From the NCBI GenBank assembly GCA_017437045.1, contig JAFSBY010000006.1, forward strand, positions 110,083 through 174,082: a stretch of DNA of 64,000 bases, written 5' to 3'. Both the position numbers and the translations under genes were made by a program. The notes below the pieces were generated by a model. It made no database searches, was not told where the DNA came from, and worked only from the letters and a program-made list of their open reading frames with translations. This document shows positions 40,280 to 61,322 of this stretch, piece by piece. The stretch's first letter is position 1. The number at the start of each line of letters is the position of its first letter. Origin of the DNA: Alistipes sp. GTDB taxonomy: Bacteria; Bacteroidota; Bacteroidia; Bacteroidales; Rikenellaceae.

Positions 40280-41761
40280 TTAGAGCGACGGAGCAGCCGA
40301 ACCCGGCGTCTTCACCCAAATCTTAGCGGGATTTTTCAGATTACTAGAATCAACCCACAGATAAACATCATAGAGTTTATTAGTCGTCGTACCCGAGAGT
40401 TTCAAATTACCCGAGCTATTGTTATAGATTGCAGTTGCTGCAGCCTTGTTCAATGAAATGGTTGCGCCTCCATAGTTGTTTGTCCAAGATTTATCTGCGC
40501 GAACCTTAAACTCACCTGTAAGGCTTATATTTTTAGCAACATACATACCAAGCGAACCATCCCAAGTCATAGCGGTATCATTCGTTCCCCAACCGTTATG
40601 AGCACCGCAAAGACCCCAAGTCATCCCACTCGGATCAGGCATAGGACCCTCTTTGGTCTGTTCAGCAGCTGTTGTATAATCGACCCCTGCCTTCATTAAC
40701 CAAATTTTCGCCTCGTCATTGTTAATTTGCTGGAAATAAATGTCAAACGAACCAGCCTCTGTGAAGTATAAGTCTGATGAATTTACCCAAGCTGACGTCC
40801 AATGGTTAGACATAATATAATCATAATAGCGACGACCATAGTTCAATCCGGTCCAGTTTCCCTTATTGCGAATCTTGAAGCCGGTATAAACCTGAGCCTC
40901 CGTAACGGTGATGTTCTTTGCTACAAACAGATTTGCAGTCGGGGTTGTGTACATGGCGATGTCGCCATTGTCACTCCAGCCGGTCAACTCACCAACAACA
41001 CCCCACTCCGACTTCTCTGCTACAAACGGCTTATCCAGCGTGCCGAGGTTGTAGATTGTACCATTCTTGGGCGAGAAGTTGCTAATCGTACCGCACGTTT
41101 TACCGTCGATAGCATAGCTCAACGAACCCGAGCCGGCCAGATCTGCGTAGAAAATCGGCACAAGGATATCCTTACCGGCCGGAAGCGTCAACTCGGAGAA
41201 GTTCTTGACATCATAACCCTCCATAGTACCATCACCAAACAAACCACCGTTCGGGAAGTATGTAGCCGTCGTGGTGAAGGTTACCTCGTAATCCGATGAG
41301 TAGCGCAGGATAGCGCAATCGGCCTCAAGAACAACGGGATCACCGCTGCCCAGCATACAGGTACTCCAGATGCTAATACCGTCAGCACCCATTGCACTGT
41401 TAGGACCGTTCTCGGCGTTTTTATTGTAAATGTTGGCCGATACGGGACCGTCTACCATAAGATCAAGGATCGACGGATCGGTGCAAGTAAACTTGTTAGG
41501 CTCCTCGGGCGTGTTGCTAAATTCGAACTTATTCGTCCAATTGATATTGGCGATCAGCGTCTCGTTACCCTCCCAGACGGTGTTCCAAACACCCTCGTCG
41601 TCCTTCTCAAGCGTGGCGCGCGAATCGGCACCCATGTTTACCGAGGCGTAGAACGATACGCCCTCCGTTGCAGGAGCGGTCTGCTCATCAGCACCCTCGC
41701 TACAAGCCGTTACACCCAAAGCTACCAGTGCAACAGCAAAAATAGTCCAAAAACGTTTCAT
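40280..41761 (-). CDS. Surface lipoprotein: fimbrillin-like N-terminus and two SusE/F-like C-terminal modules
   Basis: Outer-membrane lipoprotein of 493 residues. The lipobox is in MKRFWTIFAVALVALGVTACSE. The N-terminal part (VSFYASVNMGADSRATLEKDD) resembles fimbrillin-type proteins of Bacteroidota. The C-terminal half has two related units: WGVVGELTGWSDNGDIAMY ... FKIRNKGNW, and WGLCGAHNGWGTNDTAMTW ... FKVRADKSW. These match the pattern of SusE/SusF starch-binding modules. A glycan-binding role is therefore likely. No SusC or SusD gene is adjacent. It is preceded, 33 bp upstream, by a gene for a 43-residue peptide and probably shares its promoter. Confidence 0.8.
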   Translation of the reverse strand: MKRFWTIFAVALVALGVTACSEGADEQTAPATEGVSFYASVNMGADSRATLEKDDEGVWNTVWEGNETLIANINWTNKFEFSNTPEEPNKFTCTDPSILDLMVDGPVSANIYNKNAENGPNSAMGADGISIWSTCMLGSGDPVVLEADCAILRYSSDYEVTFTTTATYFPNGGLFGDGTMEGYDVKNFSELTLPAGKDILVPIFYADLAGSGSLSYAIDGKTCGTISNFSPKNGTIYNLGTLDKPFVAEKSEWGVVGELTGWSDNGDIAMYTTPTANLFVAKNITVTEAQVYTGFKIRNKGNWTGLNYGRRYYDYIMSNHWTSAWVNSSDLYFTEAGSFDIYFQQINNDEAKIWLMKAGVDYTTAAEQTKEGPMPDPSGMTWGLCGAHNGWGTNDTAMTWDGSLGMYVAKNISLTGEFKVRADKSWTNNYGGATISLNKAAATAIYNNSSGNLKLSGTTTNKLYDVYLWVDSSNLKNPAKIWVKTPGSAAPSL

Positions 41762-41794: not shown

Positions 41795-41926
41795 TTACTC
41801 CCATTTGTCGGTTACGTCCTCCTCGCCAAACGAGGGACCCGAAAACTCTCCCGAAGCAGAAAAACCCTGCTCCACGACCATCTCAACTTGCTCGATGGTC
41901 GGCATTTCGTAGAATGTCTTTTTCAT
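41795..41926 (-). CDS. 43-residue peptide with PSFGEED tail, upstream of surface lipoprotein
   Basis: Short gene read from ATG 41926 to TAA 41795. The product begins MKKTFYEMPTIEQVEMVVEQ, continues GFSASGEFSG and ends PSFGEEDVTDKWE. It has no signal peptide, is acidic, and contains a core VVEQGFSAS. It has a promoter box 45 bp upstream and lies 33 bp before the lipoprotein ATG. A second, clearly similar peptide gene (59129-59287) sits in the same place before another large lipoprotein. Conservation of ends, core and placement argues that it is real. Function unknown. Confidence 0.72.
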   Translation of the reverse strand: MKKTFYEMPTIEQVEMVVEQGFSASGEFSGPSFGEEDVTDKWE

Positions 41927-41970: not shown

Positions 41971-41978
41971 CAAAAGTA
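41971..41978 (-). promoter_or_regulatory. -7 promoter box of the peptide-lipoprotein pair at 40-42 kb
   Basis: TACTTTTG on the minus strand, 44 bp upstream of the 43-residue peptide ATG. The identical octamer serves the second peptide-lipoprotein pair. Confidence 0.65.
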
Positions 41979-42119: not shown

Positions 42120-44387
42120 TTAGGGCGTTTGTGAAGCGACGCATCGCATCCGAGTCGTGATGCTCGCGCCGTGGGCATCGACTACCATCAATCGATGATG
42201 GCCGGCGGTCGGTGTGATCTGCATCTGATGTAGATCGCGTGTAACTCCTAAGAATTGATCGTCGAGGTGCCAAAAAAGTTCGGTCGAAGGCTGGCTGTGA
42301 GCCACCTTGCAATGGATAGCACCCGACGAACCGTCCATCTGCTTGGGGAGCGAAACGATCACCCCGTCAGTTGGGTAGATGAAGCGCATCGGCTCATCCG
42401 AATCGACCGACGCAGCCGAGGGTTTGATGGGCGGAAGGGGTCGGTATTCGGGGTGGCATTGGCGGTAGTAGTGTTCCAAGAGGGGTGGCAGTGCAAAGCG
42501 GCGTTCGATGTGGGTCGGCTGGCTGCGATCAACCACACGGAAAGCGCCATCGTATGATACGTTCACCTCTTGGCAATAGGGACAAGCCCGTGTGCGGGTG
42601 GCTGCACGCGGGAGCTGGCGATGGAGCGTGTCGCAACAAGCACGGCCGGCCGGATAGCCCGAATGGCGACAAATCGGCAACCACACCCCTTCCTCGGGCT
42701 GCGGAGCCTCAAACCATCCGGACGCAGGCAGCAGATCCACCAAATCGAACATCACCGGCCCGGCCGTTTGGGCTCCGGTCATCTCGGCTACCCCGCTGCT
42801 GTCGGCATTTCCACACCACACACCCACGACATAGCGCGGTGTGCATCCGATGGCCCAGGCATCGCGCGCCCCATAGCTCGTGCCGGTCTTCCAGGCCACC
42901 TGTTGCACGGATTGTGCACGTCGCCAGTCGAGGTGATCGGGGCGGTTGAGTTCGCGCATCGTCTCGAAGGTGTGGTGCAGAGCCACTCGGTCGCGCAGCG
43001 GAAAGTCGGCATAGCGCGTCGAATCTTGATAAACGGCCACCATGCGGGCATAGAAACGGGTAACGTCATAGAGGGTCACTTCGGCACCTCCCAGCGCAAG
43101 CGAGAGACCATAGCGATCGGCCGGTCGGTCGAGCGAGGTCATGCCACCCACCTGCAGCAACTCGGCAAAACGCATCGTTCCATACTCCTTGAGCAGGTGG
43201 ACATACGGCATGTTGAGCGAGCGGATCAACGCCTCGTTGGCCGGTACAGCTCCATCGTAGGATCCGTGGTAGTTTTTCGGGGAGAAACCTCCAAAATCGG
43301 TGGGAATATCGACCAACAGCATCTCGGGCGTGAGAGTGCCCTCTTGCAACGCTGCGGCATAGAGCAAGGGTTTGAGAATGCTGCCCGAACTGCGGGGCGC
43401 ACGGGCAATGTCGATCCAACGCCCCTCGCGCTCATAGCTCATGTCGCTATTGCCGCAGTAGGCCACCACGTCGCCCTGCTCGATGTCGAAAATGACGGCT
43501 GACAGGTCGCGAACGCCCGCCTTGCGCAGGGTGCGGCTATGGCGTGTGGTGACCTCCTCGACCTGTTGTTGCAGGAGCGCATCGATCGTGGTTACGATGC
43601 GCTCGCCCGGATGGGTGCGATGATACCACGACACCAAATGAGTGGCCTCCTGGGGCATGGGATAAGGTTGGTCGATGAGCGGTTCGTCGAGTGCGAGCCG
43701 ATAATCCTCCTCGGAGAGATGGCCGGCCTCGAAAAGTCGCGTCAGCAGGCGGTTGCGCTTGGCACACAGCGCATCGCGGTTTTTCGAGGGGTGCATCGAC
43801 GAAGGGGCATTTTGCAAGACGGCAAGCGTTGCCGCCTCGGCCCACGACAGATGGCTGCCATCATGGCCCAAATAACGCCATAGGGCGGCATCGAAACCGA
43901 CAACATTGCCGCCAAAGGGGGCGTGCGAGGCATATAGGCGCAGGATCTCCTCCTTCGAGTAACGCCACTCGAGACGGGTTGCCATGAAGATTTCGACGGC
44001 CTTCTGCCACAGCGTACGCGGTTTGCGACGCGAGAGGCGGATCACCTGCATCGAGATCGTACTGCCGCCACTGACCACGCGCCCGTTGCGGAGGTTCTGC
44101 ATCACGGCACGCCCCAAAGCCCGCAGACTGACGCCGGGATGGTCGTAGAAGGTGCGATCCTCAAACTCAATGAGGGCTGTGACGAATTTCTCGGGCAACG
44201 AGTCGCACGGCGGGAATCGCCATTGCTCGTCGCGGGCCAAACGAGCTCCGAGCAATGTACCGTTGCGATCGGTAACAACGGTCGAATAGCTGACCCCTTC
44301 AAAAAGTTCTCGAGGCAGACAAAAGAGCCACAGCAGCAGGAGTGCTCCTGCCGCTGTAGCTGCGCCATATCGTAGTAGTTGTTTCAT
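42120..44387 (-). CDS. pbpC: Penicillin-binding protein 1C
   Basis: Bifunctional peptidoglycan glycosyltransferase/transpeptidase of 755 residues anchored by one N-terminal membrane segment (about residues 10-26). The glycosyltransferase site is in EFEDRTFYDHPGVSLRALGRAV, with GGSTISMQVIRLSRR. The transpeptidase serine motif is SSGSILKPLLY and the KTG box lies in WKTGTSYGARDAW. A C-terminal beta domain (about residues 655-750), ending in the RDLHQMQITPTAGHHRL region, is typical of PbpC (BiPBP_C). The start overlaps the alpha-2-macroglobulin stop by 4 bp. This pair is conserved across many Gram-negative bacteria. Confidence 0.94.
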   Translation of the reverse strand: MKQLLRYGAATAAGALLLLWLFCLPRELFEGVSYSTVVTDRNGTLLGARLARDEQWRFPPCDSLPEKFVTALIEFEDRTFYDHPGVSLRALGRAVMQNLRNGRVVSGGSTISMQVIRLSRRKPRTLWQKAVEIFMATRLEWRYSKEEILRLYASHAPFGGNVVGFDAALWRYLGHDGSHLSWAEAATLAVLQNAPSSMHPSKNRDALCAKRNRLLTRLFEAGHLSEEDYRLALDEPLIDQPYPMPQEATHLVSWYHRTHPGERIVTTIDALLQQQVEEVTTRHSRTLRKAGVRDLSAVIFDIEQGDVVAYCGNSDMSYEREGRWIDIARAPRSSGSILKPLLYAAALQEGTLTPEMLLVDIPTDFGGFSPKNYHGSYDGAVPANEALIRSLNMPYVHLLKEYGTMRFAELLQVGGMTSLDRPADRYGLSLALGGAEVTLYDVTRFYARMVAVYQDSTRYADFPLRDRVALHHTFETMRELNRPDHLDWRRAQSVQQVAWKTGTSYGARDAWAIGCTPRYVVGVWCGNADSSGVAEMTGAQTAGPVMFDLVDLLPASGWFEAPQPEEGVWLPICRHSGYPAGRACCDTLHRQLPRAATRTRACPYCQEVNVSYDGAFRVVDRSQPTHIERRFALPPLLEHYYRQCHPEYRPLPPIKPSAASVDSDEPMRFIYPTDGVIVSLPKQMDGSSGAIHCKVAHSQPSTELFWHLDDQFLGVTRDLHQMQITPTAGHHRLMVVDAHGASITTRMRCVASQTP

Positions 44388-47300
44388 CGTTTGACGGTAA
44401 TCATGCGGCTTGCGGTGGTAGCATAGCCGGTGGCATCGTACATATCTTCACAGCGGGTAGGCGGCAGTAAGAACTGACCGGTATAGGCTGCTCTGAGACG
44501 AACTTTGAACTGCTTGCTTTGGCCGGCATCAAGGGGGAAATACCAATGGATGCGGTCATCGCGCTGGTCGCAGTAGGTCACCTCCTCCTGGTTTTGCGGG
44601 GAGAGCAGTCGGTCGTTCCAGATCTCCCAGCCGGAGGGGGCTACGAAGGTCAGAGCCAACGATTCGGAATCGACAACGGCATTTCGCTTGACGGTGATCT
44701 GAGCCAGAAACTCGGCCCCCTGCTGCAGGGTATTGATGGCGCAGGGTTGACCCTTCAGATCGGTGTATTGCACCTCGACGGTGAGTTTGTTGGCCGAGGC
44801 TGCCACCGGTTCGTTGGCGGTAGGTTGCCGCAGGGTGACCAGCGTAGCGAAGAGGGGCTTTGTCCCTTGATTTTGGAGCGAAAGCGAACCCATGTCGGGC
44901 TGAACATCCAAGACTTGCGTAGCACGGATGTCGCACAACTCGATCGGGGCACTCCCCTGCTGCTCTACACGCGCCCGCTCCACGCTCGTGCCGATCTGCT
45001 CGGCGAGTGAGCCAAAGGCCGAACTGATGAAGGCTACCTGCTGCGTGTCGCAGGTCGTGGCCGAAAATTTGGAGGCTACCACTTCGGCCAACGACAACAT
45101 CTGCTCCGAAGCCCCCAGCAGAGCCCAACTTTGCAACTCCATGGCCTGATCGCGGAGGGGCGAAGAGAAGGTCGAGTAGTCGCCTGCGGCAGGTTGGGCT
45201 GTTGCAGCCCGTGTAGTCAACTCTTGGGCTACGCCGGTGCGCCCCATCCAGGCGTAGGCGGCTGCAAGGCGCAGCACAGCCTGACGCGAGAGACGAGATT
45301 CTTCGCGCAGTCGGTTCATGGCGGCCAAGGGCTGGTCGCCCGATTTGACCAACGTATAGAGGCGATACGCCTGCTGGATGTCTGTGCGGGTCGAATGGGC
45401 GTATTGGCGAGCCGCTTGTGTTTGGTATTGCTGCCAGCGTTCGATCACCTGACCTTGGATCGGGAATCCTTGGCGACGTGCCTCGATCAGCACCTCGCCG
45501 GCCATCGAAGTGACCCAATCGTGGGCTGTGTGGGAGGAGGGCCAATAGCGGAATCCGCCATTGCGCATCTGTCGGCTGATCAGCTGCTGAAGGAGCTTCG
45601 GCAGGGCCTGTTCGGCTTGTTGTTGCTCCTCTGACGATAAGAATTGACGGGCATAGAGCATATACATGGCCCGTGCCGAAAGTTGCTCGGAGCAGTAGTG
45701 TTCGTACTGCTCGACGAAGGCAAACGTACCACTAAAGTCGATGGCCGGCATGGCACTCACCTCCAACCGCGCTTCACCGTGCGTGAAGGGAGTCCAATTA
45801 AACTGTTGCGTCTTGCCTCCGGAAAGTGTAACCGGCTGTGTATGGATCACTTTGGGAAGCGGATTGCACACCTCGATTGCAATCGTGTCTTGGATGTGGT
45901 AGGAGGCCGACGAGGCCGAAATAACCACATGCGCCCGGCCGGTCTGCATCTTGTCGCACTGCAACTCGAAGTTGAGCTGTTTGTCACACGGTGCCGAGCA
46001 GGTGAACTGGTGGCTCTTCGGCCCCACGATCGACAACGGCCCATCGACCGCAACCTGCACCTGCGTCTTTCCGATATTAGGACGCGTCGCAAATAGTTGC
46101 ACGGGTAGCGATACACGATCACCGCATACCAAGCGTCTGGGCAACGAGGGCAGCAACATCAACGGTGCCTGCACCTTCATGGTCCGATCGGCACTGCCAT
46201 AGCAGCCTTCGTGAGCGGCTACGACCATTACGCGTACCGAGCCAACATAGATCGGCAGGGTGATCGTATGGGTGGCACTACCCTTTTTCAGGGTAAACGG
46301 ACCTAATACCTTCACTACCGGATTGAAACGTTTCTCTTTGCCCTGGGCGCTGCGAACGGCCATATCGCCACCAATGCTGAGCAGCGTGTGGAATTGTCCC
46401 GTCTGTGCTCCGATGACATCGCCATACAGATCCCACGTGCTCACGCCCAACGCTTCGCGCTGATTCATCGCCTGCCAGGGCTGCGGCGTACGGAAGGAGG
46501 TGATGTCGAGCAATCCTTCATCGACCAGAGCCAACGTGTAGCTCATCGGCTTGCCGTCACGCTCCCGGATGCCCACCGTAAAGGGTTGCTGGGGCTGTAC
46601 CTCGTCGGGCAATTCGATCTCGGGGTGCAATACCGTGCTGCGATTGACTACATCGGCGCGCTCGATGCCGTAAAGACGTAGTGGCAGGTCGTTCGACGGA
46701 CGGTTGTGGGGCTGCAACAGCGTGGCGTGGAGGTAAAAATTGGGGGTCATGTCATGGGTTACGGGCAATTTGAAGGCGGTCTCCTGCTCTTTTGAGAGGG
46801 TGATCCAGCGGCGACTGATCACCCGCGAACCATTCTCCACCGAGAGCAGTACACGTCCGCCTTCGGCACGGGGCAGATAGACCGTAGCCTGCTCCCCTAC
46901 CTCGTAGTTTTTCTTGTCGAGCGAAAAGGCAAGCATGGTGGCTGCTGACGGCTCCTGGCGGCCGCTTCGACCGCGCCATTCGGGCCAATCAATCGAAACT
47001 ACACCTCCGGTCGAATGGCCACTCTGACGATCGTGCACCAGGATCAGATATCGCCCCCACGAGGGGTAATCAAGGCGGAATTGGATCGTCGCCATCCCTT
47101 CTTTTGAGGTGGTCAGGGTGCTCGAGGCCACCGAGCAAACCGAAGAGCCCTCCATATAGGTGGCGAGCTCTTGTGCCGAGCCTTCAAACCACCAACTCCA
47201 ATCCAGCCGATAGATCGAGTAATCGAGCTTGCGATTGGCCAACGGGCGGCCTTCGGCATCAACGGTCACAACATCCCATTTTAGGTCCGTGTCGGTCTCA

Positions 47301-49762
47301 AACGTGCGCTCCCCCAAGCAGATGCCGACATAGGCATCATAGGGCGCATAACGTACCATGCGCGAGGTGATGCTCTCGTCGCCTCCGGCCTCGGTGACGC
47401 GGGCTATCAGGTTCGCCCACAAGAGCCCCGGTTCGCCATCGGCTGTAGGCATGGTGAGGGTGCGGCTTAAGTGGCCCACACTATCGAGCCGAGCCGTGAT
47501 GAGTTGATCTTCGGATGAGGAAAACTCCGTGAGCGGATTGGTAAAACTGAAACTCTTGTAATCGGCAAAGGGGGTGGCATCCGCATGGAGCGTCCACTCC
47601 ATCGTAGCCGTTAATCCGTCGGCTGCAGGGCCTGTCAGCCAATGGGCTTGCAGACCGATTGTTGTAGGCTTTCCGGCCTGAATAATATCGGGTGATTCGA
47701 TCTTGATCTTCAGACGATTAGGTTTGATTGTCTCAATCTGTACAGGATGTTCAAAGATTGCTCCACCGACCTGGAATTTTGCTTGCCAATGACCGGTCGG
47801 CGCAGCCTCCTCCGTCGCAATGCGGAACAGATAAAAGCCATCGATGCCCTCGCTCTGTGTTTGACGCGTGTAGCTTTGCCCCTGGGGGGTAAAGAGCTCC
47901 AGCGTTACCGGATGCTGTTTAGGCAGCACCCGGTTGCGATCCTCCAACAAGAGGGTCAGACAAATCTCGTCGCCCGGACGCCATACACCTCGCTCGCCAT
48001 AGACAAAGCCCTTTAAGGTCGTTTTACTCGGTTTTTGACCACTCACATCGAAACGACTGTTGGATTGCGCATCCCCACCCCGCATACGCAGGTAGCTCAC
48101 CGATTGTCCATCCTCGGCCGTCACGACAAAAGGTACGCCCGAGAGTGTGAAATCGGCAAAACCTTGGGCATTGGTCTTGCCCTGGCCGATGGGGCGAAGC
48201 TGGTAGTTGTAGGCCGTGACGGTCACACCGCTGATGGGCTTGATGGTCATGATGTCGCTCACGGTGGTCCAAAGTCGATCGCCATCAGCCTTCTTGACAA
48301 TCAACCCCAGGTTCGAGGCAACCAAGTTGTAGCCGTTGTTGTAGATGTAGGGATAGAACTGATCCCACTCTGCCTCCTCTTCGGGGGTCAAGCCGCGTTG
48401 CATGGTCAAATCGGACGATGCAGACTCCCCGTCTAGGGCGTACTCCTCCTTAAAAGAGAGTTGGACATTGTAGATCGCCCCTCGCTCCTGCCGGAAGAGC
48501 CCCTTCAGGTCGATGGCAAAGGATTGCCACTCGCGCAGATTGCGCGTCGTGTCGGCATCTAATCGGACGGTCTGTTTGTGAATGGCGCGTCCGACGCGAC
48601 GGAGATTGTCCGTCTCATGCAAGGCATTCTCTTGCAGGAAGGTCAGCACATTGTCGGCATAGATCTTCACTACCTCGACATCGACAGCCTTTAGATTGAT
48701 CGTCTGGAACGGAAAACGCAGGTTGCTGCCATCGGGCAGGATCGTACCGCTGAGCGGTACCTTGATCGAGGGAGGCAGATCGGCGGCCGTGAATTGGCGT
48801 ACGTAGTTCTGGGGCAGACGCTTTCCCTGCGCACTACGTACCGAGGAGGAAACCTTGAGCGTTAATTGCGAATCGGTCAGCGGGTCAAAAAACAGCCGTA
48901 CACACGAGGCGTTGTAGCGCGAGGTGCGGATGCGGCAGTTCTCGGCCCCTTCGAGCGTAATCAGCCCATCCAACTCTTGGTCGCAGTCAATCGGGGCACT
49001 GAATTCGATTTCGAGATAGGTGTTTGTCCCCTCGGATAGTCGGGCTTGCAGCAATTCAAAATTGCGTCCCGGGAGGATAATCGTGCGCTCAACGGCTTTG
49101 CCAAAGCCGATCTTATCGGCTCGAAAACAGATCTTCGCGGCACGTGCACGCGTATCTCGCTCAATGCCATGAATGGTGTACTTCCACTGCTCGGGATCAT
49201 CCTGCTCGATCTCGAAGGTGACCCCGTCATCGCCCGTAAGGGAGAAGAACGACGAGGCCTCTTCATACGGAACAGGCTCGCTAAAGCACAACGTGCCTCG
49301 CGCAATGAGGTGGTCCGTCCGATGCGGATCAATCAGGAGGAGTGGCTCTTGCAGGATGGCAAAACGATCTTTGACGGAAAACGAAAAGGCGAAATCGGCC
49401 AATGAGTCCACGCCTGTCAGTTCGGCCAGATTCAAGATACACCGATAGCTCTTACCCGGTTGCAACTCTCCAGCCTCGGGGGTAAAGCAGAGCTGCTGTT
49501 TTGTCTCGCTCCAATGCGTTTGCCCGGCGAGCGAGGGGGTGAAGCGGAAGAGTCGGTCGAGGCGGGCTGTCGAGTCGATTGACTGCCGCAGCAGCTCGCT
49601 TGGCTCAATGCAGATGCTGGAGCTCGTGCTAATCGTGGCGGGTGAGAAGGCTTGAATCAAGGTCGAAGCCTCCTCGGGGGTGAGTTCCGGGCGGGAGGTG
49701 CAACCCGCCAGCAGGAGGATAGCAGCCAGGGCCATCCCGATTTTGTGTACGAAGTGTTTCAT
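44384..49762 (-). CDS. Bacterial alpha-2-macroglobulin lipoprotein with thioester
   Basis: Very large (1792-residue) periplasmic lipoprotein; lipobox in MALAAILLLAGCTSRPEL. It has serial macroglobulin beta domains, including FVYGERGVWRPGDEICLTLLLEDR, a bait-like middle region and the alpha-2-macroglobulin family block (LGPFTLKKGSATHTITLPIYVGSVRVMVVA). The thioester site is intact: Cys1357 and Gln1360 in HYCSEQLS. A helical toroid (about residues 1370-1600) and a C-terminal receptor-like beta domain follow. These proteins are thought to trap foreign proteases and, with PbpC, guard the cell wall. Operon with pbpC (4-bp overlap). Confidence 0.92.
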   Translation of the reverse strand: MKHFVHKIGMALAAILLLAGCTSRPELTPEEASTLIQAFSPATISTSSSICIEPSELLRQSIDSTARLDRLFRFTPSLAGQTHWSETKQQLCFTPEAGELQPGKSYRCILNLAELTGVDSLADFAFSFSVKDRFAILQEPLLLIDPHRTDHLIARGTLCFSEPVPYEEASSFFSLTGDDGVTFEIEQDDPEQWKYTIHGIERDTRARAAKICFRADKIGFGKAVERTIILPGRNFELLQARLSEGTNTYLEIEFSAPIDCDQELDGLITLEGAENCRIRTSRYNASCVRLFFDPLTDSQLTLKVSSSVRSAQGKRLPQNYVRQFTAADLPPSIKVPLSGTILPDGSNLRFPFQTINLKAVDVEVVKIYADNVLTFLQENALHETDNLRRVGRAIHKQTVRLDADTTRNLREWQSFAIDLKGLFRQERGAIYNVQLSFKEEYALDGESASSDLTMQRGLTPEEEAEWDQFYPYIYNNGYNLVASNLGLIVKKADGDRLWTTVSDIMTIKPISGVTVTAYNYQLRPIGQGKTNAQGFADFTLSGVPFVVTAEDGQSVSYLRMRGGDAQSNSRFDVSGQKPSKTTLKGFVYGERGVWRPGDEICLTLLLEDRNRVLPKQHPVTLELFTPQGQSYTRQTQSEGIDGFYLFRIATEEAAPTGHWQAKFQVGGAIFEHPVQIETIKPNRLKIKIESPDIIQAGKPTTIGLQAHWLTGPAADGLTATMEWTLHADATPFADYKSFSFTNPLTEFSSSEDQLITARLDSVGHLSRTLTMPTADGEPGLLWANLIARVTEAGGDESITSRMVRYAPYDAYVGICLGERTFETDTDLKWDVVTVDAEGRPLANRKLDYSIYRLDWSWWFEGSAQELATYMEGSSVCSVASSTLTTSKEGMATIQFRLDYPSWGRYLILVHDRQSGHSTGGVVSIDWPEWRGRSGRQEPSAATMLAFSLDKKNYEVGEQATVYLPRAEGGRVLLSVENGSRVISRRWITLSKEQETAFKLPVTHDMTPNFYLHATLLQPHNRPSNDLPLRLYGIERADVVNRSTVLHPEIELPDEVQPQQPFTVGIRERDGKPMSYTLALVDEGLLDITSFRTPQPWQAMNQREALGVSTWDLYGDVIGAQTGQFHTLLSIGGDMAVRSAQGKEKRFNPVVKVLGPFTLKKGSATHTITLPIYVGSVRVMVVAAHEGCYGSADRTMKVQAPLMLLPSLPRRLVCGDRVSLPVQLFATRPNIGKTQVQVAVDGPLSIVGPKSHQFTCSAPCDKQLNFELQCDKMQTGRAHVVISASSASYHIQDTIAIEVCNPLPKVIHTQPVTLSGGKTQQFNWTPFTHGEARLEVSAMPAIDFSGTFAFVEQYEHYCSEQLSARAMYMLYARQFLSSEEQQQAEQALPKLLQQLISRQMRNGGFRYWPSSHTAHDWVTSMAGEVLIEARRQGFPIQGQVIERWQQYQTQAARQYAHSTRTDIQQAYRLYTLVKSGDQPLAAMNRLREESRLSRQAVLRLAAAYAWMGRTGVAQELTTRAATAQPAAGDYSTFSSPLRDQAMELQSWALLGASEQMLSLAEVVASKFSATTCDTQQVAFISSAFGSLAEQIGTSVERARVEQQGSAPIELCDIRATQVLDVQPDMGSLSLQNQGTKPLFATLVTLRQPTANEPVAASANKLTVEVQYTDLKGQPCAINTLQQGAEFLAQITVKRNAVVDSESLALTFVAPSGWEIWNDRLLSPQNQEEVTYCDQRDDRIHWYFPLDAGQSKQFKVRLRAAYTGQFLLPPTRCEDMYDATGYATTASRMITVKR

Positions 49763-55720: not shown

Positions 55721-58700
55721 TTAGTCCATCGACCAGGCTACACCGGCAGCGTTGGCGATGGCTTTGCGTGCCGACGACACATCGGTGAGCGTCGGAGCCG
55801 TTTTGACCGCAGTCAATCCGAAATAGTTGTTCTTGAATTTGCCGTAGATCGTATTGTTCTCCCAAGTAATCTCGGCCTCGGGCGTCGTGCTCTCGTAACG
55901 CACGGCATAGACTGAATAACCCTCTATATCGACTGCAACGATCGTGTTGCCACGCATCGTGGTCGAAAGGACGGGCATCGTCATGTTCGAGCCGCCATAG
56001 TTGGCGTGTACGGCCAGCACGCACTCGTTGAAGGTGTTGTTCTCGATCAGCGCATTCTTGACCTGTGCATAGCCACTCAAGGCGGCATTCTCCTGCCCAC
56101 GAACGAGCGACAAGGCTGCCTTGTAACCGATGCCGGTGAGCTTCTCGAAGTGGTTGCCTCGCACCGTGTGGCCCTCGCCAATAACACGCACACCACCCGA
56201 CTCCTCGACACCGTTGCCGTAGAAATAGTTGCCCTCGATCGTGCAGTTGTTGCCGTGGCGCAGGGTCAGCGTACCGCGGCACTCCTCGAAATAGTTGCCT
56301 TTGTAGAGGTTGGCGCACGATTTGCTCGATACGACCTCGGCACTCTCGCCATAGCACTGATAGAAATAGTTGTTTGCAACGGTTACCTTGCCATCGCTGA
56401 GCGAGTTGGCGCTGTCACCCACGCGAATCGTCTCCTGCTCGTTGGCCGGATCGCCATCCGTCGGATCAATCAGAATCGTGGGACGCGTGAAGTGGTTGTA
56501 CTGAATCGTGTGGTTGGGCGTTACACCCTCGTCAAACCAGACAACGAGTAAGGCCCCGCGATCGCGCTTGTCCATAAACGAGCAGTGCTGCACGGTATGA
56601 TGATCGCCATTGAGCGAAACCCATTTGCAGGCATGTGTGTAGTCGGCCGTGGTGTTGTAGCCCGTGATGGCGCACTCTTCGAGTGTGCAGTACGAAGTGC
56701 CCGCATGGAAACGTACCAGATGCTCGGCACTGATCAGCGGGTCCTGCCAATGAAAACCGCGTACGGTCGTGCGATCGCTCTTAATAGCAAGGGTGGAGTT
56801 CCCCGTAAAGAGAACTCCACCGTTTGATTCTGCACGGAACGTAATACCTTGTGTGATCGCTTGTTTGCTGTCGATCGTCAGGTTTACATCCTTATAGGTG
56901 CCATTTTTCCAAATAATCTCATCACCATCTACCAGCGGCGTCAGCGCGCTAAACTCGGCTACCGAAGCGACCGTAAAGGTGCCCGCTGCACGCTCGCCAT
57001 CGACTACGGGCGGCGTAGGCGTGGGCAGAGCCACGCCATCGTCACCATAGGTCGGTTGAGCTGCCGCATCGTTGATCGGCTTCGACCAGTAGAAGTCGAA
57101 CTTAATATAGCCCTCGCGAGGAACCGTCTCCACCGTGGCTTTTCCCGTTGTCAGATCGGCGCAGGTTACCTCCTTGATATGGATAAAGCCCTTCTTGGCC
57201 AAATCGGACATATTCGATGCCGAGGGTTTTGCTCCCTTCTCATAGGTGCTATATCCGATCATAATCACAGCGCCTACCGTCCAAGTACCACCTTCAGCAG
57301 TAGCGGTTCCCAAAGCAGGACCACCCGACGAAGGTTTCGTACCGTCATAATTCATCGACGACAAGGTACCCTCGGTGATAGCCTTCGACCACTCGTTGTC
57401 AGTGCCCAATACGCGATAGAACGTAATCGGCGTACCGAACATCTTGTTGGCGATCAGATTGCGATAATCGCTGCCATCGAGCGGGTAGTAATGGTTGCGA
57501 ATGACCGAGTTTGAATTGGCCACTGATGCAAATGATAGTTTCTGTCCCGAATCTGCTACAAAGAAGAAATAAGGCATCGAAGCATAATATTGCGCAGCCG
57601 AAATAACGGTTTTATCCAGTCCGCCGTGCTTACTATCCGAAGTGAGCAGTACGGCAGAGTTGGAGGTCTGTTCCTGCTGATCGGCCGTAACGACAAACGG
57701 ATCAATCGGCATATCATACCACTCATTCGCCGAGATCACCTTGCCCAAATCGGGAACAAAGAAGGCGTTTTGCGAAGCATACTCGGTGTAGGTCGATGAC
57801 GAATTCGATCCCAGACCGAGCTGTACATCTTTATAATAGAAGAAGGGATAGACCTTGATTGAGCCGAGCTCGTATGCGTTGTCGTTGCTATCGTAGCCCA
57901 CTACATCACACGAGGCAGCTTCCGTGCGCTCGATCGTATCGGGAATCTTGAAGATGATCTGGCTGTTCGACACCTGCAGACCGGTAGCCGGAACCTCCTT
58001 GCCATCGACCGTCAGCTTCGTGATCGTACCCAGATTCAGACCCGTAGCCGTAGCTACCGTATTGAGGTAGAACTTCTCCGACTCGGCATCGTGGTCGGGC
58101 GTAATGGCCGTCACGGTCATGGCGCTATCGTCAAATGCGCTGACGGTCAGCTTCTTCGTGGCGCGTGCACCACGATCGAGCTTGCCGGCCTGGAACTCGG
58201 TCGACCAAACGGGGTTGCCCGTCGTATAGAGCTCCACTTCGAGGGTCTCGCCGTCGAGGTAGTATTCGGTGGTCGAGCCATCCTTGAAACCGGCGTTGAT
58301 CATCAGGCGGATATCCATGGCCTCGCCCGCCTTCACAACCGTAGCCTCGGGCAAAGTCGTCGTGATACTCGATGCGGGTGTGATGAAACGACCATCGGTG
58401 TTCGATACCTCCGTAGCATTGTGAAGAGCTTCGTAGGTCTTCGATTTACCAATGTTGGCCTGGAAATCACCTGCCAAGATCAGACCACTCTTCGAGGTCA
58501 GCGTCAGCTTCTCGATCGTCAGATCTTTGCCCGTCTGATTGACTACATTGAGGCGCAGTACCGAGAAGAGGTGTCGGAACGTTACCGTAGGATTCACGCC
58601 GAGCTCCGAAGACTGAGCCGTACCGCTCACCATAAAGGCGTAGTCCGAGATATCCCAACCGGCCGGATCATATACCTGCTCCGCGGGCAGCGTGCCAAAA

Positions 58701-59107
58701 GCGGCCGACGACGATGTAACCGTCTCATCGTAGGGATAGTACATCTGGAACTTGTGTACACCCTCACCGATCTCTACCCACTCGATATCGCCCGTCAGGG
58801 TTGCCGTAGCCTTGTCAAACGAGGACAAGGTGTAGAGCGCATTGCGGTCGCGGGTTTTGTTGCTGCCGCCGGTCGGTGTCGTGGTATAGAAAACGCCGAT
58901 CTGCTCGTCGCCCTTCCAGTGTACCGTTGCACCATCCTCGGCCAAAATCGTACGGCTGGCGCTATCATCAATCGTTGCCGAGAAGCCGATCTTCTCGCCC
59001 GTGGTCATCGGAGCCGACAACTCGTTGCCCTCCTTCTCGCACGAAGCTGCACCCAACAACAGCAGGGCGCATACCATGTAACCAAATAGTTTCTGTTGCT
59101 TTTTCAT
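55721..59107 (-). CDS. Large surface lipoprotein: fimbrillin-like + IPT/TIG-like + PL6-type polysaccharide lyase
   Basis: A 1128-residue lipoprotein (lipobox in CALLLLGAASCEKE). The N-terminal region (about 30-330) is fimbrillin-like, with IGFSATIDDSASRTILAED and VHWKGDEQIGVFYTT. Around 345-430 is an IPT/TIG-like beta domain (ITPDHDAESEKFYL ... LTVDGKEVPA). Residues about 430-740 are unassigned. The last 390 residues form a right-handed beta-helix of polysaccharide lyase family 6. The two catalytic residues can be placed: Lys929 in VVSSKSCANLYKG and Arg950 in LTLRHGNNCTIEGN. Their spacing of 21 equals that of chondroitinase B (Lys250, Arg271). Expected to cut a uronate-containing glycan such as alginate or dermatan sulfate; the substrate is not known. 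Preceded by a 52-residue peptide gene. Confidence 0.85.
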   Translation of the reverse strand: MKKQQKLFGYMVCALLLLGAASCEKEGNELSAPMTTGEKIGFSATIDDSASRTILAEDGATVHWKGDEQIGVFYTTTPTGGSNKTRDRNALYTLSSFDKATATLTGDIEWVEIGEGVHKFQMYYPYDETVTSSSAAFGTLPAEQVYDPAGWDISDYAFMVSGTAQSSELGVNPTVTFRHLFSVLRLNVVNQTGKDLTIEKLTLTSKSGLILAGDFQANIGKSKTYEALHNATEVSNTDGRFITPASSITTTLPEATVVKAGEAMDIRLMINAGFKDGSTTEYYLDGETLEVELYTTGNPVWSTEFQAGKLDRGARATKKLTVSAFDDSAMTVTAITPDHDAESEKFYLNTVATATGLNLGTITKLTVDGKEVPATGLQVSNSQIIFKIPDTIERTEAASCDVVGYDSNDNAYELGSIKVYPFFYYKDVQLGLGSNSSSTYTEYASQNAFFVPDLGKVISANEWYDMPIDPFVVTADQQEQTSNSAVLLTSDSKHGGLDKTVISAAQYYASMPYFFFVADSGQKLSFASVANSNSVIRNHYYPLDGSDYRNLIANKMFGTPITFYRVLGTDNEWSKAITEGTLSSMNYDGTKPSSGGPALGTATAEGGTWTVGAVIMIGYSTYEKGAKPSASNMSDLAKKGFIHIKEVTCADLTTGKATVETVPREGYIKFDFYWSKPINDAAAQPTYGDDGVALPTPTPPVVDGERAAGTFTVASVAEFSALTPLVDGDEIIWKNGTYKDVNLTIDSKQAITQGITFRAESNGGVLFTGNSTLAIKSDRTTVRGFHWQDPLISAEHLVRFHAGTSYCTLEECAITGYNTTADYTHACKWVSLNGDHHTVQHCSFMDKRDRGALLVVWFDEGVTPNHTIQYNHFTRPTILIDPTDGDPANEQETIRVGDSANSLSDGKVTVANNYFYQCYGESAEVVSSKSCANLYKGNYFEECRGTLTLRHGNNCTIEGNYFYGNGVEESGGVRVIGEGHTVRGNHFEKLTGIGYKAALSLVRGQENAALSGYAQVKNALIENNTFNECVLAVHANYGGSNMTMPVLSTTMRGNTIVAVDIEGYSVYAVRYESTTPEAEITWENNTIYGKFKNNYFGLTAVKTAPTLTDVSSARKAIANAAGVAWSMD

Positions 59108-59128: not shown

Positions 59129-59287
59129 TTAATTGTTCGCGTTGTCCCAGTCCTCCTCGTCACCGAACGAGGGAGCACCTGTTTCTTGATTCGAGTAGGC
59201 GAAACCGGCCTCGATCACGATATTGACCACTTCGATGCGTGGCGACAAATAGCTCTCGCGGAGCTCTTTTTCGGATAAGTAGTTCAT
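59129..59287 (-). CDS. 52-residue peptide with PSFGDEED tail, upstream of the PL6-type lipoprotein
   Basis: Short gene from ATG 59287 to TAA 59129. The product begins MNYLSEKELRESYLSPRIEV, has the core VIEAGFAYS, and ends APSFGDEEDWDNANN. It matches the 43-residue peptide at 41795-41926 in the P-x-I-E start of the core, the (E)xGF(A/S)xS core, and the PSFG(D/E)E tail. It has no signal peptide and is acidic. It lies 21 bp before the lipoprotein ATG and 31 bp after its promoter box. Function unknown. Confidence 0.75.
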   Translation of the reverse strand: MNYLSEKELRESYLSPRIEVVNIVIEAGFAYSNQETGAPSFGDEEDWDNANN

Positions 59288-59302: not shown

Positions 59303-59350
59303 ATTGGTTTACCAATCGCAAAAGTAGTACAACTTAATTGGTAAACCAAA
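59303..59350. promoter_or_regulatory. Two palindromic operator-like sites around the peptide-PL6 promoter
   Basis: TTGGTTTACCAA (within 59303-59316) and TTGGTAAACCAA (within 59337-59350) are reverse complements of each other and each is an inverted repeat. Their centres are 34 bp apart, close to three DNA turns, and they flank the -7 box. A dimeric repressor or activator binding here is a reasonable inference. Confidence 0.6.
59319..59326 (-). promoter_or_regulatory. -7 promoter box of the peptide-PL6 pair
   Basis: TACTTTTG on the minus strand, 31 bp upstream of the peptide ATG; identical to the box of the other peptide-lipoprotein pair. Confidence 0.7.
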
Positions 59351-60059: not shown

Positions 60060-61322
60060 TCAAACCCTATCTACTCGTCTACATTTAAGAATTAATGGTT
60101 GTCCGTTACTATTCTTTATTCCACTATTAATGGTTGTCGTATTACCTCGTTTGATAGGGTGATCTGAATATGTAATAGCTGTTTTGTTGTGTGAAGAAAA
60201 ATGAGAATAAATAAATATTTCTTTAATATAACAATCCAGCAATTGTTGTAAGCGTTTTGCATCAAAATGCTTAAACGCGAGCAACTCCATACTTGTTGAC
60301 TCTTTTGAATCATCAATAACCACCTTAATTTCCACATCCGCACAATTGCGAATCTCTATCATAAAACTATATTTGGAATCTATTTTGCCACTTGTGCTAA
60401 TCTTAACATTTTTTCTATCCCATACTTTATGTAATGTATCCCTTAAATTAGTAAAAACGATATTAAGTCCTGCTCTTTCCACAGCATCTAAATCTTTCCA
60501 CCAATCTTTGAACTCCAGTAATTCAAAAACTGGCAGATGTTTTAGGATATTATACTCATTTATATATTTAATAAACTTATGTCCATAATAAGTAAGAGCA
60601 TTGTATCTCAAAAAGAACAACTCTGTCTCCGTCAATTGAGCCCTAATGATTTTTAAATAATCTTTTTTAATTCCCTCAGGGATTGTTTTGGCATTGTCAA
60701 TCAGGTCATATATGCGATACAATGTTCTATAATATGCCCCTATTTTATCCTTGTTTTTTATATAGAAAAACATGTATGTTTTTAGAGCTTCTGCTTGATT
60801 TTGCTCAAAAGATTTTTTGGGAGTGAAAACCCGTTGAAGTTTTTCTTTTTCAAAGTCAAAAAAGTCTTTGTTGTTATATGAGTATTCATACACTTCAGTA
60901 TTTTCATCTTCAGTTAAATTATCCTTTTTCGACTTCTCAAAGGTTCTATATACTCCACATAAATCTGATACTTGACTTTGATACAATCGTAATAATTCAA
61001 AGAATAAATCATGGAAGCGCTCTATTTCAAGTTGTGTTTGATTATCAGCCGTTGCTATTCGCTGATGATCAAATGTTTTAAACATTAGGAGTACACTTAT
61101 TACTCCAAAGATGGTTCCTAAAACACCTCCGACGAAATCACCATATGTTCCCAATCGTGCATAATCTGCTATATAGTCCGCTTTAAATGGTTCAATTATT
61201 TGTCCCCATCCAAAAGCTATACCTGACAAAGCGATAAAAACAATGGAAAGCACAGCATATGCCCATTTAGACATTAATATTTTGTCTACAAATTGACTGA
61301 TCTTACTAAAAATTGCCTTCAT
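60060..61322 (-). CDS. Putative phage abortive-infection protein (AbiC-like)
   Basis: A 420-residue protein with two N-terminal membrane segments (about 18-40 and 63-84), then a large helical cytoplasmic part. The stretch LGTYGDFVGGVLGTIFGVISVLLMF, and after it QTQLEIERFHDLFFELLRLY, is characteristic of the 'putative phage abortive infection protein' family. The later block LRYNALTYYGHKFIKYINEYNILKHL also fits. Such proteins are thought to kill or arrest phage-infected cells. It lies in an AT-rich island with codon use unlike the core genome, 151 bp after a small unknown gene on the same strand, which suggests horizontal transfer. Confidence 0.75.
   Translation of the reverse strand: MKAIFSKISQFVDKILMSKWAYAVLSIVFIALSGIAFGWGQIIEPFKADYIADYARLGTYGDFVGGVLGTIFGVISVLLMFKTFDHQRIATADNQTQLEIERFHDLFFELLRLYQSQVSDLCGVYRTFEKSKKDNLTEDENTEVYEYSYNNKDFFDFEKEKLQRVFTPKKSFEQNQAEALKTYMFFYIKNKDKIGAYYRTLYRIYDLIDNAKTIPEGIKKDYLKIIRAQLTETELFFLRYNALTYYGHKFIKYINEYNILKHLPVFELLEFKDWWKDLDAVERAGLNIVFTNLRDTLHKVWDRKNVKISTSGKIDSKYSFMIEIRNCADVEIKVVIDDSKESTSMELLAFKHFDAKRLQQLLDCYIKEIFIYSHFSSHNKTAITYSDHPIKRGNTTTINSGIKNSNGQPLILKCRRVDRV

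Follow-up and report, generated by a model that had tools for sequence, protein, structure and literature searches.

Alistipes is a common gut genus, and in a 64,000-nucleotide stretch of one Alistipes genome (the window) a 43-codon gene stands directly before the gene of a large surface lipoprotein, which raises the question of what so short a peptide does there. A reading of the letters alone (the sequence-only reading) had offered four roles: regulator, chaperone-like partner, modified peptide precursor or translational leader. Among these, the modified precursor is favoured because of an RRE-binding leader motif and co-occurrence with genes for an RRE, a kinase and a leader peptidase; for the remaining three there is scant or no positive evidence. 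We consider it likely (probability roughly 0.8) that the gene encodes the A protein, or precursor, of a RiPP resembling the linear polyphosphorylated peptides (LPPs), with dispersed precursors, one machine and each precursor paired with its own surface lipoprotein. The maturation genes, which the sequence-only reading did not find, lie elsewhere in the genome, outside the window. The features of the window are as follows.

41795..41926, minus strand: putative precursor peptide gene 1, 43 aa, translation MKKTFYEMPTIEQVEMVVEQGFSASGEFSGPSFGEEDVTDKWE; belongs to a peptide family with core pN/pS 0.26
41861..41911, minus strand: leader motif Y6 to F22 of peptide 1, YEMPTIEQVEMVVEQGF; YxxPxI (RRE-binding-type), then E-Q-G-F
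41852..41854, minus strand: conserved Ser25 of peptide 1, putative phosphate acceptor; core S3 if cleavage follows F22, by analogy with S3 of LppA
41798..41860, minus strand: variable acidic core/tail of peptide 1, SASGEFSGPSFGEEDVTDKWE, from the translation
41971..41978, minus strand: promoter -7 box-like site upstream of peptide 1, TACTTTTG, fits TAnnTTTG
40280..41761, minus strand: partner lipoprotein 1, 493 aa, beginning MKRFWTIFAVALVALGVTAC; starts 33 bp after the peptide 1 stop; weak X25 pullulanase match, below cut-off only
59129..59287, minus strand: putative precursor peptide gene 2, 52 aa, translation MNYLSEKELRESYLSPRIEVVNIVIEAGFAYSNQETGAPSFGDEEDWDNANN
59319..59326, minus strand: promoter -7 box-like site upstream of peptide 2, TACTTTTG
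55721..59107, minus strand: partner lipoprotein 2, 1128 aa; starts 21 bp after peptide 2; fimbrillin-like and C-terminal chondroitinase B parts

The gene at 41795-41926, previously reported without a strand, is a real open reading frame on the minus strand, and its gap of 33 bp to the lipoprotein start at 41761 is as described. Both translations contain the GFxxS core and the PSFG(E/D)E tail said to be common to the two peptides, and both products are indeed acidic (net charge -7 for peptide 1 and -8 for peptide 2) with no signal peptide seen by eye. Peptide 2 is found from peptide 1 in a single-sequence search (E 4.3e-4) and by the family profile (E 5.5e-17, peptide 2 itself being part of that profile). 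Small open reading frames with the strict motif number two in the window, against 0.033 per first-order random window (60 windows). The claim of an own promoter agrees with the promoter-like site 5' of both peptides and with enrichment across the family: 32 of 61 members have TAnnTTTG, which we take to be the Bacteroidota -7 box, no more than 150 bp from their start, where mononucleotide shuffling predicts 4.1. Such a box before the peptide is consistent with one transcript for peptide and lipoprotein. Rfam returned nothing on the window at gathering scores, and there is therefore no described leader RNA in it. Other genes of the window include a large bacterial alpha-2-macroglobulin (42120-49762; 1792 aa, Pfam), followed by a gene that is penicillin-binding-protein-like by eye, and a protein with a putative phage abortive infection (putAbiC) domain (60060-61322, minus strand) near the unit of peptide 2 and its lipoprotein.

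Searching the own genome with peptide 1 gave ten matches, all ten followed by a lipoprotein start 1-33 bp on, and a profile built from them raised the number to 13, of which 12 are credible. The remaining match (L024; E 0.022, internal stop) was dropped as a non-member. Across the genus, matches with E no higher than 0.01 occur in 54 of 61 genomes, with up to 22 per genome; the 12 own-genome members and the 54 genomes exclude the case in which the two window peptides have no further homologues. Closer examination covered 61 members, comprising 12 from the own genome, 29 best-per-genome and 20 loci that were hand-picked from the genus matches and not drawn at random. They share a rigid 20-residue core, Y-x-x-P-x-[ILV]-...-E-x-G-F-x-x-S, followed by a variable acidic tail; length is 35-61 aa (start by rule) and mean net charge -7.6. 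The core pattern Y-x-x-P-(11)-G-[FYI]-x-x-[ST] is free of indels in 61/61 members, a count that is not independent given that the members were profile-chosen. Within the same profile-chosen cores Y, P, E and G are conserved in 61/61 and F in 59/61, and the final position is S in 59/61 and T in 2/61. The conserved Ser is written with both TCN and AGY codons and Pro with all four of its codons, and pN/pS of the 20-codon core is 0.26 (53 pairs at no less than 72% DNA identity, the pairs not being independent). This ratio and the use of both Ser codon families indicate that selection acts on the protein, and a family lacking protein-level constraint is excluded. Ten members compared with Pfam gave no match, and with NCBIfam three weak matches, one member each, none over cut-off, which bears out the suggestion that the module lies outside standard annotation.

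Repeated pairing with large surface lipoproteins, also proposed from the window, recurs in all three sets. Under a relaxed lipobox rule, 11/12 own-genome, 25/29 best-per-genome and 20/20 hand-picked members have a lipoprotein start no more than 100 bp downstream; the rule accepts 53 of the 503 genes called with 100 aa or more and was written after seeing the misses of a first one (8/12, 22/29 and 20/20, baseline 60/503). The gap medians are 21, 21 and 13 bp, and the 11 paired own-genome peptides have their lipoprotein gene within 33 bp. The unpaired one (L023, G000:C32:81618-81719) has a lipoprotein start just 1 bp downstream, but that frame breaks after 67 aa; the remainder seems to resume further on after the stop. 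The four unpaired among the 29 are L028 (contig end), L044 (next open reading frame at 170 bp, not a lipoprotein), and L042 and L049, which have similar downstream proteins, that of L049 reading as a lipoprotein by eye.

The partners are modular. Partner lipoprotein 2 matches PF13149 (Mfa_like_1) at 38.9 bits and PF14592 at 217.7 bits. Among 19 partners scanned (most of the own-genome ones truncated near 490 aa), PF13149 matches five (two below cut-off), CBM26 two, FnIII two (one below cut-off) and LRR_5 one (below cut-off), and nine have no match. Some partners thus carry the fimbrillin-like part and others CBM26, LRR-like, FnIII or lyase parts, whereas many fimbrillin-like lipoproteins stand without a peptide. 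As a control, fimbrillin-like lipoproteins were found in 11/11 genomes tested, including six without the peptide system. A convincing upstream peptide was seen at 0/16 fimbrillin-like loci in those six genomes (one loose match was read as spurious) and at 0/7 such loci inspected in genomes having the system, start codons being set by a rough rule that looks wrong in some cases (L318, L321, L333). The peptide therefore marks only some such lipoproteins. To our knowledge, no fimbrillin system with a RiPP precursor is known. Similarity between tails tracks similarity between lipoproteins beyond that of the leaders (partial rho 0.12-0.18, 58 gene pairs); 0/300 permutations were as strong at each of three cut-offs, with the leader less clear (21-38/300). 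The effect is small and may in part reflect the two paired genes being inherited together. The evidence favours a peptide matched to its own lipoprotein, which is the weakest step of the account.

Profile searches of the 61 genus genomes found the peptide in 54, a PqqD-type RRE in 54, an HprK-like kinase in 51 and an SpI-like peptidase in 51. The 54 genomes with the peptide include 53 with an orphan PqqD-type RRE, 50 with the HprK-like kinase and 50 with the archaeal-type signal-peptidase homologue; six of the seven without it (G007, G009, G012, G013, G048, G060) lack all three. The table of peptide against PqqD (53 and 1; 1 and 6) gives a Fisher value of 8.7e-7. On an rpoB tree with 45 genomes, five of the six among them, 1-3 losses would account for the absence of the system (3 changes, with 2-3 across bootstraps), and the genomes are thus less independent than the genus Fisher values imply. 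In good-quality genomes, meaning at least 90% complete and at most 5% contaminated, all four parts agree in 27/27 (24 with, 3 without), and the control gene rpoB is found in 27/27. One exception, G045, lacks a peptide match although RRE, kinase and peptidase are there; one of its two peptidase matches is in three pieces (G045:C65 and C82). Another, G226 (99% complete), has one peptide without a PqqD or HprK match; this lone peptide stands before a lipoprotein (L141, G226:C10:73656-73766) and is possibly a relic or a recent transfer. The peptide occurs without a PqqD match in G036 (71% complete) and G299 (65%). The peptide-bearing genus genomes without the kinase (G032, G033, G036, G042) or without the peptidase (G010, G032, G036, G042) are 71-86% complete.

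Kinase and peptidase matches lie within 150 bp of each other in 50/50 genomes having both, and an ABC exporter gene stands just before the kinase in 14/17 loci read, two of the other three being second, EPS-linked clusters. In the own genome (G000) exporter, kinase and peptidase form a tight set at C8:118964-121944, with the RRE apart at C31:24863-25120. By eye, no modifying enzyme adjoins the orphan PqqD at 15/16 genus loci; the exception (L075) belongs to a second cluster, which holds NTP transferase and HprK-like genes. The RRE was presumably relocated, given that a sister genus has it beside exporter and kinase. At many Alistipes loci read (L070, L071, L080 and others), recQ lies on one side of the RRE gene and a TonB receptor/heavy-metal-domain set on the other. 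Among the 80 RRE relatives listed of 211, 75 are from Alistipes or Rikenellaceae, including Alistipes montrealensis. The second PqqD-NTP transferase-HprK cluster is seen in three Alistipes genomes (G034, G027, G008; L075:9870-12146, L175, L176); its setting, exopolysaccharide-like loci, parallels that of the capsule-linked LPP clusters in Bacilli, and a precursor search near these clusters found no acidic YxxP peptide.

Kinase, peptidase, exporter and RRE all score below NCBIfam curated cut-offs. The RRE is over the Pfam PqqD (PF05402) cut-off in 54/61 genus genomes, reaches 16-17 bits against NCBIfam lasso_PqqD models with cut-offs of 70-80, and its profile has a single match in the PDB (E up to 1), TfuB1 (6jx3, E 9e-4), which we take to be a lasso RRE. 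The kinase conserves the P-loop FLG[EK]SGTGKSTH, scores only 20-22 bits against TIGR04352 (cut-off 200) and has no Pfam match over cut-off. For the peptidases of G000, G079 and G068 the best family is TIGR02228, at 23.4, 34.4 and 44.2 bits (cut-off 51.85), and the Ser, His and Asp positions are conserved by eye. The exporter has MsbA as its best NCBIfam match (266.5 bits, below the cut-off of 602).

Linked versions of the system are found in relatives. Among 247 genomes at order level, the peptide profile matches nine, and an RRE orthologue of at least 90 bits is present in seven; all seven have the peptide, compared with 2/240 of the other genomes, and the system genomes come from five family labels. 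In G079 the genes for peptide, HprK-like, SpI-like, PqqD, NTP_transf_5 and ABC proteins are consecutive. In G068 RRE, exporter, kinase and peptidase are consecutive, as are exporter, peptidase and RRE in G273 (the sister genus), where the kinase match starts about 1.2 kb further; G268 has most of the set together, and G098 has only a weak kinase match (56.7 bits) on another contig. By eye, a lipoprotein lies downstream of 5/5 peptides in G273, 2/2 in G173, 2/3 in G268, 1/1 in G098 and 5/5 G068 loci with enough sequence (six loci read of ten matches), and of 0/3 peptides read in each of G079 and G299. Kinase and RRE are found together beyond these cases as well: the kinase reaches at least 120 bits in 16 genomes, 15 of which have an RRE of at least 50 bits. 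HprK, SpI, PqqD and NTP transferase genes also stand side by side, by eye, with a more distant RRE at three loci (L122, L124, L125 in G290, G138, G242), followed by an ABC-like gene at L124. No convincing precursor was recognised near these three clusters, which are probably further LPP-like systems with other leaders.

The closest described counterpart is the LPP class, reported in 2026 from the lpp cluster of Paenibacillus alginolyticus; the following comparison draws on the accessible part of that report (PMC13381572). The LPP core set comprises SpI, an RRE, an HprK-like kinase, an NTP transferase and an MsbA-like exporter, with no lipoprotein. LPP leaders resemble [Y/W]xxPx[L/V/I/F/A], the motif bound by discrete RREs of lasso peptides, and are cleaved by SpI, with the RRE needed for efficiency; in LppA, S3 is phosphorylated, just after the cleavage site between FET and AQS (PMC13381572). 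Alistipes resembles this in its discrete RRE, HprK-like kinase, archaeal-type SpI homologue, MsbA-like exporter and lack of a lasso B2, and its peptides resemble LPP precursors in a YxxPx[V/I] leader, a conserved Ser and a variable C-terminus (PMC13381572). The LPP leader reads YxxPxVLxHQxIxFETxxS, whereas here YxxPx[ILV] and the final Ser are joined by an E-Q-G-F leader end without HQxIxFET, and the Ser is at Y+19 rather than Y+18, one residue longer (PMC13381572). LPP clusters hold one to three precursor ORFs, compared with up to 22 scattered matches per genome here; further differences are the Bacteroidales host, an RRE apart from the kinase operon in Alistipes, and the pairing of most precursors with a lipoprotein (PMC13381572). 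Four of the five LPP core genes are found here, the NTP transferase (NTP_transf_5, PF14907) not being seen, by eye, adjoining the Alistipes exporter-kinase-peptidase operon (PMC13381572); it does lie near PqqD in G079, G268 and the second G034 cluster. A full-text search, with subscription journals and bioRxiv mostly outside it, gave no description of such a system in Bacteroidales, and no mention was found in the accessible parts of a 2023 RiPP survey of Bacteroidales (PMC10352776) or a 2025 RRE survey (PMC12710340).

By this likeness, the N-terminal half of the peptide would be the leader, its Y-x-x-P-x-I segment pairing as a beta strand with the orphan PqqD-type RRE (G000:C31). The RRE would present the precursor to the HprK-like kinase, which would phosphorylate the conserved Ser (A/S-x-S), and to the archaeal-type (Ser/His/Asp) signal-peptidase homologue, which would remove the leader; the product is thus probably phosphorylated and leader-cleaved. 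Cleavage is predicted after Phe, between GF and AxS by alignment with FET and AQS of LppA, which would make the Ser core position 3; alternatively, a cut of the classical signal-peptidase type may fall behind the Ser (AxS). Export of the product would be the task of the MsbA-like ABC transporter whose gene adjoins those of kinase and peptidase (G000:C8). One machine would serve about 12 precursors scattered over the genome, each predicted to be co-transcribed with its own large surface lipoprotein, and the mature peptide would most likely act with that lipoprotein at the surface as a ligand, plug or displayed group. More tentatively, and with less than even odds, these units may form a genome-wide peptide and surface-receptor system, in which one machine matures at least a dozen phosphopeptides, every one co-transcribed with and fitted to a modular lipoprotein of its own (adhesin, carbohydrate binder, lyase) whose function or assembly at the surface it gates.

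The same RRE/HprK/SpI machine might instead make a free exported peptide, signal or toxin-like, with the lipoprotein a promoter-sharing neighbour, receptor or immunity protein and not a display partner. The peptides of G079 and G299 that stand without lipoproteins speak for this, as does the Bacillota LPP core set, which has no lipoprotein in the accessible part of its report (PMC13381572); the great majority of genus peptides are nevertheless paired (11/12, 25/29 and 20/20), and the tail tracks the lipoprotein, so that we regard a free peptide as possible rather than probable. An unmodified cytosolic chaperone for lipoprotein assembly or secretion would also account for a tail that tracks the lipoprotein and for a small acidic protein beside its client. 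It would leave the YxxP leader, the conserved Ser and the linked machinery unexplained, and a protein of 35-61 aa with a variable tail fits it poorly, which makes it highly improbable.

Short gaps (medians 21, 21 and 13 bp) and a promoter-like site before the peptide are what would be expected of a translational leader, an ORF that only controls translation of the lipoprotein gene by stalling or coupling. Such a role is very unlikely, given that the protein is constrained while synonymous codons vary freely, that the peptide goes together with RRE, kinase and peptidase across genomes, and that other fimbrillin-like lipoproteins without a peptide and peptide copies without a lipoprotein both exist. 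The RRE-bound [Y/W]xxP leader and the HprK-like kinase are also shared with phosphorylated lasso peptides of the paeninodin type, and a lasso precursor could be read into the YxxPx[ILV] motif and into the match of one of ten members to NCBIfam lasso_PadeA_fam (E 0.014). However, the lasso B2 protease (PF13471) is over cut-off in 0/61 genus genomes, with weak matches in 4/61, and the tails are too short or too variable for a lasso core, one member having only ten residues after the Ser; this identity is scarcely credible. An LPP-like precursor that is paired with a surface lipoprotein remains our preferred reading.

If it is true, a RiPP class reported in 2026, together with paeninodins, as restricted to Bacillota (stated in the accessible part of PMC13381572) extends to Bacteroidales, in Alistipes. 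If experiments confirm it, many precursor genes, mostly before lipoprotein genes and sharing one enzyme set, would be a new kind of arrangement. Cluster-based RiPP mining relies on precursor and enzymes side by side and would therefore miss about 12 precursors per genome that lie apart from their enzymes. The biological role of LPP-type peptides is called unknown by the LPP authors in the part of their report available (PMC13381572), and the pairing with lipoproteins offers a testable role for them.
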